A DNA stretch of 64,000 nt, from NCBI RefSeq assembly GCF_002999335.1, contig NW_020312038.1, positions 84,507 through 148,506 of the forward strand, in the 5' to 3' direction. The stretch is from Cyclospora cayetanensis (Eukaryota > Apicomplexa > Conoidasida > Eucoccidiorida > Eimeriidae). Position numbers and translations under genes: made by a program. Numbering within the stretch: the first letter of the stretch is position 1; every line of letters begins with the position of its first letter. Positions 56,594 through 61,474 of this stretch are shown piece by piece. Under the pieces are notes generated by a model. The model was not told the origin of the DNA. It made no database searches and saw only the letters and a list, made by a program, of their open reading frames with translations.

Positions 56594-59500
56594 TCAGGCA
56601 GATGCCTGAACCGGGAGAAATCCATCAGTTACTGCGGTAGCGCTCGCCGCATGATGTGAGCGCCCTCTGCGGGCTTTCATACGGCTAATCGTCAACTCTT
56701 TCGCCCTTCGCGCATACTTTTTAGCAACTGCCAGCGTGCTGATCATGCAGCGATCGTTCATCCGAGATGGCGATCGGCCACGAAGACCTAATGCGAGTGG
56801 AGCGCTCCCTGAAATTCCTTCCTCCCTCATTCCAAACTCTGGAAAGACGCGAGTAATTTGTGGGAAGCATTGAGGTATTCGGGAAAATAAGAGTCCGACG
56901 AATCCGATCATGATGCTCAAAAGCCATTGCTGGTAGGTGAGACCCTGAGAAAAAGAATACATCGTCTCCACACTCAACAAAAAGTGGGCAAGGGCCAACA
57001 CGTGTAGATAAGCACAGCATGCATTATTCAGGGAATTGCATTGGGGTGGCTGACCTCGAAGTGGCAACCGATCATTGAGCCTCCGTATTCAACCATCAAA
57101 ATCTGTGAGAAGAGAATGAACAACCAAATAGAGAATCCCATTGGATTGCCTGTCATCTTGACAAAAAGTCGCGGTAATGACACTTTCTGTGTGAAATCCT
57201 CTTCCACATCCCTTGCGTTGACCATGTTGAACAACTGCATGAGTACGAAGGTATTGAAAACAAATGTCAGGTGACGCGATGGTCCAAATACGCCGACCCA
57301 GCGATCCTCGTAGTCCTCTTCAGTAGAAAAAAGCTTGTATTTCCTGCCGGAACGCATCAAGGTTCCCTGACCTGTACACGCACATTGGCACAGAAGGATA
57401 TGAAGGAGCGCTTTCCTGGCTCATCACATTTACGCCGTTTGATATGCTCATTTAATTCCTTCATCGAACCTGCTATCTGGATTCCATGGGATCTGTTGGG
57501 TAGCTGGACATACCTGTCAGCGGATCGCAGTCTGAAAATTCGCAGAAGTCATTTTGTGACCGATCTGCTGGCAGGAGGTACCCCCACTGGCTTTCAGGAA
57601 GAAAGGAATCCCCAAAAAATATCAGTGCGATCATGATGACCAGCTGATACAGTGCAGAAGTGGTAATCGTAAGCGCCATTGACCTCGAGATGAGAGACTG
57701 GTGCCGGTGATGGGGCTTCTCCTTCAACAGGTCGGGCGTAGGCAGCTCCGTCGCAAGCGCTAGCGACGCAAAACTGTCCATGATAAGGTTCACCCAAAGC
57801 ATCTGCACAGCCGTCAGCGGCGAGTCGCGCAAAATGGCCGCGCACAGTATGGTCGTAATCACAGCCACGACGTTGACTGTGAGCTGGAACTGCAGAAAAC
57901 GCCGGATGTTGCTGTAGACATTTCTCCCCCACTTTACCGCTTGAACTATGCACTGAAAATTATCATCCAGCATTACAATGTCTGCGGCTTGTTTTGCCAC
58001 CTCCTTGCCAGTAATTCCCATGGCGAGGCCCACGTCTGCTTTTTTTAGTGCAGGCGCGTCATTCGTTCCGTCGCCCGTAACGGCAACCACCTGGCCAAGC
58101 TGCTTCAGTGCGGTAACCAGAACGTACTTGTCCGACGGTTGGGATCTTGCGAGGACTTGAAGTCGCCCCCAGATCCTCTCAAATGCCTCTATATCCGCTA
58201 TAACGTCAACACGAAGATTTTTCCCTTCTAGCTCCGCTGTCTTTGCATCAGTTGCGCAGCCGCACATGGCCGTTCTGCAAGTCTGGCAGATCACGCCTCC
58301 CACCAGTTTCGTGAAGTCCGGCCCAAGCATTGCCAGGTCTCCTCTCTCTTCGCTAAAAATATTGCACTTTTTTGCGATGGCTTTCGCCGTTATGATATTG
58401 TCACCTGTCACCATTCGAACGTTAATCCCCGCCTGGTGGCAGCGCATTACGGCTTCGGGCACTTCGTCTCTCACAGGATCTTGTATTCCAAAAATGCCAA
58501 GGCAAATCAGGTTCTGCTCGGCTTTCAAAAACATTTGGTTTGGTGCAGGTTGTTTGTCCCTCCACTCAGGCAACTCATCCATATTGAAATCTCTGTACGC
58601 TATGCAAATTGTTCGCAGTGCGTCACGTGCCATCCCGTCAATGACTCGCTTCTCGATTTCCGACTTTTGATCTGCTCGAAGCTGCTGAACATCTCCGCTG
58701 GTACTCACTAAAAAACTGCATAGCTGGAGCACCCTTTCAGCCGCGCCTTTGACATAGACTCGCACATAAGGCTCGTCCAGTCCATTCTGGTACACGATTG
58801 TGGTCATGATTTTGCGATCACTAGAAAACTCTTCTCTGTGGACGATGAGGGAGTCTGACCCTTTTGTTGCCCGAATTTCTGCGTAATCTGCCCCGCAGAT
58901 GAAATCGTTGTACTCCAGGAGGGCGCATTCAGTTGCAGATCCCACGTACTTCACGGTGTACCGGGTGGTGGGCTGACCATCACTAAGCGCCATCATCTCC
59001 ATCTTTTCAAGGAAAGCTGTCGAGTTTAGGGAAATGCTTTCGGTAATCAAGCGCCACCTTTCTGTTCGCTCATTGAACCCCGGTGCGCCGTTGGCGTCTG
59101 GGCTGGCGAAAGAGGCTGAAGGGACTTGAACTACCTCCGTTCCATTCCAAAACGCAACGGCACTCATCTGGTTCCTCGTGAGCGTGCCAGTCTTATCCGA
59201 GCATACTTCGTTGGCAGATCCCATGGTCTCGCATGCCCCAAGACGGCGGACGTAGTTTTGATCGGCCAGCATTTGCCCTATTGAGTAGGCCAGAGAGATC
59301 GTGACGGCTAGCGGCAGGCCCTCGGGCACCGCCACGACGAGGACAGTGATGGCCGTTACGAAAAAGTGAACGTGGCTACCAACGATTGACGCCAAAAGAG
59401 GCCGCTGGTCTGACTCAGTGAGAGCATATATCACCCAGTATTCCAAGACAAGAACGCAAAAGGCAACGATAGAACAAAGGAGCCCGAAATTGCCGATGTC

Positions 59501-61474
59501 ACCCGCTAGGGCATTCAGCTTGAGCTGTAAAGGAGTCGCCTCCGTATCGAATGAAAGTTTTTGAAAAAGCTGACCAGACTGCGAGTGCGGGCCAATAGCA
59601 ACAACAATGGCAGTACCGCTTCCGCTGTTGACTGTTGTTCCTGAAAGCACTACAGGCGAGGAGACAAAGTGGTGCTGCATTGACCTAGGACTCCTGCTGT
59701 CACCTTCCTCAAGCTGTGCAACGCAGTCTTCGTACGTGTCTTTCTTGATCATTTCCGACTCGCCAGTCAGGGAGGACTCGTCGATGCGCAGTCCACGACA
59801 CGACAGCACCACGCAGTCCGCCGGAAGCTCGTCCCCTGCTTCAAACTGAAGCAAATCTCCCAACACGAGATCAAAAACGGAAACTTGAGTTGGGCATCCG
59901 TCCCGTATGACCGTACAGTTCTTGTTATCCTTCACTGCAGACAGCTGGCGGAACTGCTGCTCCTTGAGCCAGTCATTTCCAGCAGTCACCACCACAACGA
60001 CCAGAACGGCCACCCAGATGGCTGCGCCTTCCATCCATTCTACTTGTGGGTTCTCGCCAAATAGCTGGGACAAGACAATCGATACAAAACCGCACACCAT
60101 GAGAATCTGCAAGGTACTGTCTGACGCGGCATCGAGGCAAAGAGACAGGAAAGAAGCAGAAGCACGACGCGGGAGCCTGTTGACCCCGAATAGCTTTTGA
60201 CGCCGCCTAATGTCCTGTTGGTCGGACAGCCCCAAATAGCGTGGCACACGAAGCAAGTGAACAATGCCTTCTCCGCCCCCCATCTGCTGAAGCATCGTGA
60301 TATCTTCACATTGTGTTCGCGTTACATATGCCCTCACGAGACCGGTCAGCTGGTCCCTTATCTCTTCTGCTTGTTCAGGAGAAATGTGCTCCAAGAGGCC
60401 TTCTTCTACAAGAGCAAGAGACTCTTCTATAGACGAATCCCTTTTGCTGAGGCGGCGAGAATAGTACGTGCGAGTGAGTTGGGACTCGAGGGCTCGCCGT
60501 TCCTCATAGCTATCGACTGCGCAGCAAAGCCTCCCCATGAGCAAGAGAGCCATACCGGTCGAAAGCGAGATCCCTGCAGGCCCCCAAAGCTCAGTAGAGC
60601 ACATGAAAATTGCAATAGCCGAAGCAAGTTCGCTGATGCGCCACACATGCTGGCCATACATCCTCATGAGCTTGTTGGATACCAGGCTTTTGAAAAACGG
60701 AAGGGCCCCGGCGGTTGTCCAGCAGCCCAAAACGAGCCATTCATGTGAATTAAAGGCTGCCAGCTTGGAAAAAGAGAGCACATTGATCTGCTCGTTGAAG
60801 AGCCAAATGAATAGTGGGAACGCCACGGCCCCGGTGATGCCGCAGGCGGCTGTCAGGGAGCCTTCGTCAGGCCCGCTAACATGCACTGCCCAGGGCAAGT
60901 AAGCACCGCGGTATATAGCAGAGGTCATGGCGAGCAGCATGCAATAGTAGAAGTCTACGTAGGCCGCTGAAAACAGGCAAGAGACCCCTAAAAGGCATAC
61001 CGCCCCCCACCTGAGCGAAGTGTACTGTGTTTGGCATCCTGCGGACCGGAAAACGTGGTGGCAGGCAACTAAGAGCCCAGAGGCAACAGGGATTGCAGCG
61101 GGGTGTCGAGCCACACCTATGACACTGTTGGATACTGCGTGAAAGGCACAGTAAGCCAACGAATACGGGAGCAGCTGGACAAACCACTTGAAACCACCGA
61201 GTTTGACTGCAGGGAAGCAGGCAGTGCGGGGAAAAGAAGCGCCGAAATCCCCCAATATGTATGCACTAGCAAGTACCTGCACGAGCTGCCACCAGGTGAG
61301 GAACAGCGGAGAGGGGAAGTAGTTAAGGATGCAATAAGACACAAGCACCTGCGACACTGTCAGTGCCACGGAACACGTGAGTAAAGCCAGCTCGCTTGCC
61401 GACCAGGTGAGCTCTGAAAATACACCGCGCAAACCTTCAAGGAAGCCGCCCAGCGGGCCCGCAGATTCAGTCAT
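56594..61474 (-). CDS. Fusion protein: nucleotide-sugar-transporter-like domain plus PMCA-type Ca2+-ATPase
   Basis: Three exons (61474-57514, 57371-57055, 56944-56594) give 1,542 residues. Residues about 25-320 form a drug/metabolite-transporter domain of about ten helices (SQVLVSYCILNYFPSPLFLT near 41, LLMGRLCC near 311). A charged linker of about 80 residues follows. From about residue 395 (MGGGEGIVHLLR) it is a complete type IIB P-type ATPase: LTGES at 569-573, PEGLPL at 717-722 in helix 4, the phosphorylated Asp760 in SDKTGTLT, KGAAE at 909, TGDN at 1023, TGDGTNDAPALKKADVG from 1133, and helix 6 VNLIMDSFASLALATE with Asn1229 and Asp1233 as expected for the calcium site. Exon 2 adds FNTFVLMQLFNMVNARD and helices 8-9; exon 3 adds the last helix and a basic tail. 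The pump exports Ca2+ from the cytosol; the other domain's substrate is unknown. No stop or intron separates the halves. Confidence 0.9.

Follow-up and report, generated by a model that had tools for sequence, protein, structure and literature searches.

A GAP40-like membrane domain fused to a PMCA-type calcium pump in Cyclospora cayetanensis and related parasites

We analyzed a stretch of 64,000 nucleotides from Cyclospora cayetanensis (NCBI RefSeq assembly GCF_002999335.1, contig NW_020312038.1, positions 84,507 to 148,506; the whole stretch is hereafter the window) and found on its minus strand a gene that, with high confidence, encodes one fused protein, in which a multi-helix membrane domain precedes a PMCA-type Ca2+ pump. 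Judged by its sequence, the N-terminal domain is almost certainly a paralogue of GAP40, while the pump half reads as a complete P2B (PMCA-type) Ca2+-ATPase. The protein is very probably the orthologue of a Toxoplasma gondii pump, TGGT1_312100, which by matching literature names to this locus we identify as TgA1, PMCAA1 and IMC42. As far as we have searched, what is new is the recognition of the N-terminal domain as GAP40-like; the pump itself is already known. The domain and one of its residues lie at the following positions of the window:

60443..61474, minus strand: GAP40-like domain (residues 1-344), a drug/metabolite transporter (DMT) fold of ten membrane helices, with confidence dropping after residue ~330
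61034..61036, minus strand: Cys147, which aligns with Cys142 of Plasmodium falciparum GAP40 (PfGAP40); Cys in 10 of 11 fused rows and a gap in the eleventh (Cardiosporidium)

Several searches connect this domain with GAP40. BLASTP between the fused domain and T. gondii GAP40 gave 4e-39 (identity between the GAP40-like domain and GAP40 is 31-33%), and in the Cyclospora genome, where 24 matches were scored, the sole other match to the N-terminal half was the GAP40 locus (2.5e-35). In a search of 122 sequences, a profile of six fused domains alone, with no GAP40 seed, matched the Cyclospora GAP40 locus at 1.8e-49. When GAP40 was the first row, the profile gathered 41 proteins with 43-100% identity to Cyclospora GAP40, with P0122, a C. 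cayetanensis record, at 100%; ten of the 41 are named GAP40, one is named 'GDP-fucose transporter 1', and the remainder are unnamed or have uninformative names. The transporter name belongs to P0153, a Babesia bigemina relative of GAP40, and tracks its fold, not its family. Across an alignment of 44 rows, made of 11 fused proteins and 33 of the 41 GAP40 matches, 16 residues are invariant, including those in TW.Q, G...WR..E and GR, and of 96 positions with conservation of 90% or more in GAP40, 34 persist in 80% or more of the fused rows. PfGAP40 Cys142, the counterpart of Cys147, is a putative palmitoylation site according to the available part of a published account.

Similarity to GAP40 runs across the membrane domain, but the fused domains do not group inside the GAP40 clade as orthologues. 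The domain tree held 11 of the 14 fused rows (P0002, P0008 and P0009 were left out as incomplete) and 21 of the 41 GAP40 matches, and was rooted at the midpoint only. Because fused rows and GAP40 part at a branch with support of 97/99, a split found in 98% of 200 bootstrap trees, we treat the domain as a paralogue and call it GAP40-like. GAP40 has a C-terminal tail of its own, whereas in the fused protein the pump is joined in its place, and the fused domain evolves faster. In the portions of the literature available, a Plasmodium study counts GAP40 among orphan membrane transport proteins, and GAP40 is described as absent from non-apicomplexan genomes, with another report of less well conserved sequences in chromerids. 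We also weighed whether TgDAT1, a scramblase of the inner membrane complex (IMC), is related and dropped the idea; the literature, as far as available, discusses TgDAT1 with MFS proteins.

The sequence-only reading of this locus had taken the N-terminal half for a nucleotide-sugar-transporter-like domain of about ten DMT-type helices. The helices and their arrangement hold: the predicted structure, built on the 44-row alignment, has ten long helices in a DMT arrangement with high confidence from residue 26 to ~330, and draws the last helix to residue 344 with falling confidence. Predicted structure and structure comparison both give the DMT fold that is shared with nucleotide-sugar transporters (SLC35/TPT). 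Vrg4, SLC35B1 and a plant TPT are 10-12% identical to the GAP40-like domain, which matches no family model: searched alone, it gave no Pfam match up to E 10 (TPT included) and no NCBIfam match up to E 1. GAP40 was not among the structures listed as fold matches, which carries no weight either way. The TPT model had four matches in the same genome, on three other contigs and none at this locus, and it also matches 7 of 14 control genomes. A PDB profile search with the domain gave three weak matches only, all beta-xylanases at E ~0.3, and no transporter. On sequence we rejected nucleotide-sugar transporter as the family of this half and retained it as the fold. The proposal that the fusion might link calcium to nucleotide-sugar import is not supported, since the sequence of the domain relates it to GAP40, with no Pfam or NCBIfam match, and the TPT matches of the genome lie elsewhere. 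It is also improbable that the domain is a working transporter, for nucleotide sugars or some other small molecule, that is coupled to the pump: its sequence family is that of GAP40, transporters are missing from the family and PDB matches, and a fold by itself shows no transport.

The gene has three exons, and the first of them holds the GAP40-like domain and most of the pump:

57514..61474, minus strand: exon 1, 3961 nt; GAP40-like domain, linker and pump to about residue 1320; donor G|GTATGT
57372..57513, minus strand: intron 1, GT...AG
57055..57371, minus strand: exon 2; near-C-terminal membrane helices of the pump
56945..57054, minus strand: intron 2, GT...AG
56594..56944, minus strand: exon 3; final membrane helix and C-terminal tail; stop codon 56594-56596
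60380..60442, minus strand: charged linker, about residues 345-365; low-confidence end of the structure model
57514..60379, minus strand: PMCA-type pump core within exon 1; TGES at residue 570, PEGLP 717, DKTGT 760, KGA 909, GDGTNDAP 1134, NLIMDS 1229
56594..56875, minus strand: C-terminal tail; basic stretch from residue 1500 (AKKYARRAKELTISRMKARR)

An open reading frame scan found a stop-free minus-strand frame at 57473-61489, of 1338 codons, with its ATG at 61474. When the same interval was mononucleotide-shuffled 300 times and read in three frames each time, no open run exceeded 238 codons, which excludes a chance origin of the frame. Splicing by this model (exons 61474-57514, 57371-57055 and 56944-56594) yields a product of 1542 residues and 169.9 kDa. 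Five eimeriid models (1543-1546 residues) align with it end to end, at 74.9-80.8% identity over 1539-1542 residues. Exons 2 and 3 are included in that alignment, at 74.8-83.8% identity over the five models; with E. tenella P0003 the identity over residues 1321-1542 is 83.8%. By eye, the basic stretch of the tail (AKKYARRAKELTISRMKARR) resembles those in the fused pumps of Eimeria, Toxoplasma and Cardiosporidium. The public C. cayetanensis Ca2+-ATPase model, P0002, is 98.7% identical over 1398 aligned residues and differs where its model departs from ours: it removes 50 residues of the GAP40-like domain as a supposed intron and misreads the last exon. We treat these departures as gene-model error because the Eimeria models keep both the 50 residues and the last exon; the window supports 1542 residues. 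The second PMCA of the same genome (G000:C14:8920-15191), which accounts for 12 of the 24 matches scored, apparently has many exons, in contrast to the single 3961-base exon that carries the GAP40-like domain and most of the pump in the fused gene.

Scored over the whole frame, TIGR01517, the PMCA-type equivalog model, gave 818.6 bits against a cut-off of 507.05, while the other equivalog models among the 25 listed stayed below their cut-offs, and the closest solved structures to the pump by sequence are PMCA1 and PMCA2. TGES, DKTGT, KGA, GDGTNDAP, PEGLP and NLIMDS, which we take to be catalytic and ion-site motifs, occur once each in the pump. Six eimeriid rows share on average 82.3% pairwise identity over residues 421-1320, 65.7% over residues 26-320 and 61.6% over residues 321-365; the N-terminal half is conserved as a protein yet evolves faster than the pump. 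The sequence-only reading was borne out in its uninterrupted frame of 3,961 bases, which is exactly exon 1, in the end of its range at 56594, where the stop codon of exon 3 lies, and in its type IIB Ca2+-ATPase, with the score and motifs given above; the topology that it had judged possible for the fusion is compatible. Its linker of about 80 residues is indeed free of stops but shorter, at ~20-40 residues, as resemblance to the unfused PMCA relatives P0015 and P0016 begins, by eye, from about residue 366.

The fusion is not confined to Cyclospora, and a Cyclospora-only origin was rejected. Among the best 120 of 6683 proteins found with the pump at E<=1e-60, the domain profile detected the GAP40-like domain in 13: C. 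cayetanensis (P0002), E. tenella, E. maxima, E. stiedai, E. flavescens, E. mitis, P0005, P0008, P0010, Besnoitia, Neospora, Toxoplasma and Cardiosporidium. The models of P0008 and P0009 are cut at the N-terminus. The sequence-only reading had suggested checking whether one gene model holds both halves in other coccidia; the models of Eimeria, Toxoplasma, Neospora and Besnoitia do. None of the remaining 107 pumps among the matches listed carried the domain above threshold; in no fewer than six of the 107 the N-terminal part is short or unusual, so absence there is weaker evidence. Domain-free second PMCAs occur in Neospora (P0022), Hammondia (P0024), Besnoitia (P0026), Cystoisospora (P0023) and Cyclospora (P0034), and PMCAs without the domain also in Gregarina (P0040) and Vitrella (P0018 and P0020). 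In a tree of 32 of 121 pumps, including 8 of the 14 fused ones, the fused pumps form one clade (99/94). Two entries filed under animals, P0017 (the quail Colinus virginianus, marked contamination) and P0021 (the fly Condylostylus longicornis), are apicomplexan-like PMCAs, and the tree places both among apicomplexan pumps. In the domain tree, midpoint rooting puts the fused domain of Cardiosporidium on the side of GAP40, and the Cardiosporidium row and P0010 sit on long branches; a single origin of the fused domain is for these reasons not proved. The simplest reading is one fusion event predating the split between Cardiosporidium and the coccidia. A P-type ATPase is likewise fused to a different domain elsewhere in the phylum, in the apicomplexan guanylyl cyclase with its P4-ATPase-like domain; there the ATPase is flippase-like and N-terminal, whereas in the Cyclospora fusion it is a Ca2+ pump and C-terminal.

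The Toxoplasma protein has the same domain order as that of Cyclospora and 53.4% identity over 1525 aligned residues, and its pump half falls in the same clade; it has 280 more residues, most of them ahead of helix M1 and in the pump half, and its fused model has a mass near 199 kDa. The available parts of a 2023 study show endogenously tagged IMC42 as punctate along the body and list it under the maternal IMC, and IMC42-Ty also appears in the part available of a 2024 study (PMC11723607). Phosphorylation at S444/S445, dependent on PKG/SPARK, is reported for TGGT1_312100 in the accessible portion of another study (PMC11321763). In the 1822-residue Toxoplasma model P0013, residues 444 and 445 are both Ser (HDSSLR) and lie between the GAP40-like domain and helix M1, so the reported numbering fits the domain-containing model, although that model is from strain COUG and the sites are from GT1. 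The sequence-only reading knew of no description of the pairing. The protein itself was known, as TgA1/IMC42 and under Ca2+-ATPase annotations given to several coccidian fused proteins. No description of a GAP40-like domain in the pump was found among the papers listed from the literature searched (subscription papers and preprints lay largely outside it). In the portions available, the literature on TgA1 treats the pump as an ordinary PMCA-type pump with no mention there of a GAP40-like half, and a review that covers both GAP40 and TgA1 treats them apart.

These comparisons also bear on whether the locus holds two genes or yields two proteins, by a frame shared by chance or by a hidden promoter or splice site dividing the halves. 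In favour of this, the Cyclospora protein has in-frame Met codons at residues 394 and 398. Between the domain end and pump helix M1, however, no Met position is common to all 13 fused rows, and E. flavescens has no Met there at all. Together with the shuffles, which rule out chance, the continuity of the frame, the same two-domain architecture in several genera and the match of the Toxoplasma phosphosite numbering to the fused model, this led us to reject two adjacent genes and to regard two separate proteins as highly improbable.

Elsewhere in the window, a 293-residue open reading frame at 12530-13411 on the minus strand matches STT3, oligosaccharyl transferase, N-terminal (Pfam PF02516, 129.3 bits), and an 860-residue open reading frame at 44976-47558 on the plus strand is hydrophobic in several stretches and has no Pfam match at E 0.001. 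Simple-repeat arrays, CA/TG-rich and TA, lie at 17503-18298 and 23690-23745.

GAP40 is described, in the parts of the literature available, as an IMC-resident membrane protein that is essential in IMC formation and is a hypothesised anchor of the gliding motor. The balance tips slightly toward the GAP40-like domain being an IMC targeting or anchoring module for the pump. Through contacts inherited from GAP40, it would deliver the pump to the IMC sacs or hold it there, and the fused paralogue would serve the pump as GAP40 is hypothesised to serve the motor. The catalytic domains of the pump would lie on the cytosolic side, and Ca2+ would pass from the cytosol next to the motor to the lumen of the alveoli, either filling the alveolar sacs with Ca2+ or removing Ca2+ from the vicinity of the motor. 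In Toxoplasma, the cytosolic stretch from the domain to the first pump helix, phosphorylated in a PKG/SPARK-dependent manner, would be a candidate switch.

Several points weigh against this placement. Common ancestry with GAP40 does not prove that the placement signal was kept, and the fused domain diverged fast: 16 of the 96 GAP40-conserved positions are lost, the HN of the HNHQ stretch of GAP40 among them, and 46 of the 96 are partly kept. TgA1 was long placed at acidocalcisomes and the plasma membrane, and its loss lowers polyphosphate, according to the available parts of that literature; the punctate signal of IMC42 could also come from another peripheral compartment. The stretch that carries the phosphosites in Toxoplasma is ~100 residues shorter in Cyclospora, and P0017 lies inside the fused pump clade with a model that has no N-terminal half, being either truncated or a case of domain loss. 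The fast divergence and the literature placement of TgA1 also speak for a rather unlikely alternative, in which the domain is a fixed accessory subunit that stabilises or regulates the pump or helps it fold and does not set its location, with the pump at acidocalcisomes or the plasma membrane. A mammalian parallel would be neuroplastin, which, with basigin, is called an obligatory PMCA subunit in the parts of the literature available. What speaks against a purely accessory role is that the domain has an IMC protein as its closest relative and that the study, as available, assigned the tagged Toxoplasma protein to the IMC.

With the GAP40-like domain as a targeting or anchoring module, there would be a reason for a pump filed under acidocalcisomes to have surfaced in an IMC screen. 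The domain would also be a small, separable module for testing pump placement, and GAP40 gains a relative inside a Ca2+ pump. The available portion of a 2016 paper (PMC4850295) describes a neutral, thapsigargin-independent, PKG-regulated Ca2+ store in Toxoplasma and gives Ca2+ storage by the IMC as undetermined; since PKG/SPARK-dependent sites follow the GAP40-like domain, the fused pump is a natural candidate for that store. A Ca2+ pump with a relative of an IMC anchor would be a candidate molecule for IMC Ca2+ storage, as in the homologous alveolar sacs of Paramecium discussed in the same portion of that paper. We suggest, tentatively and as the less probable outcome, that coccidian alveolar sacs form a separate Ca2+ store, which is filled by a pump fused to a glideosome-anchor module. 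If so, these sacs would correspond to the neutral, thapsigargin-independent, PKG-controlled store of Toxoplasma, with the phosphosites tuning its filling beside the motor, and the IMC would be the counterpart of the Ca2+-storing alveoli of ciliates.

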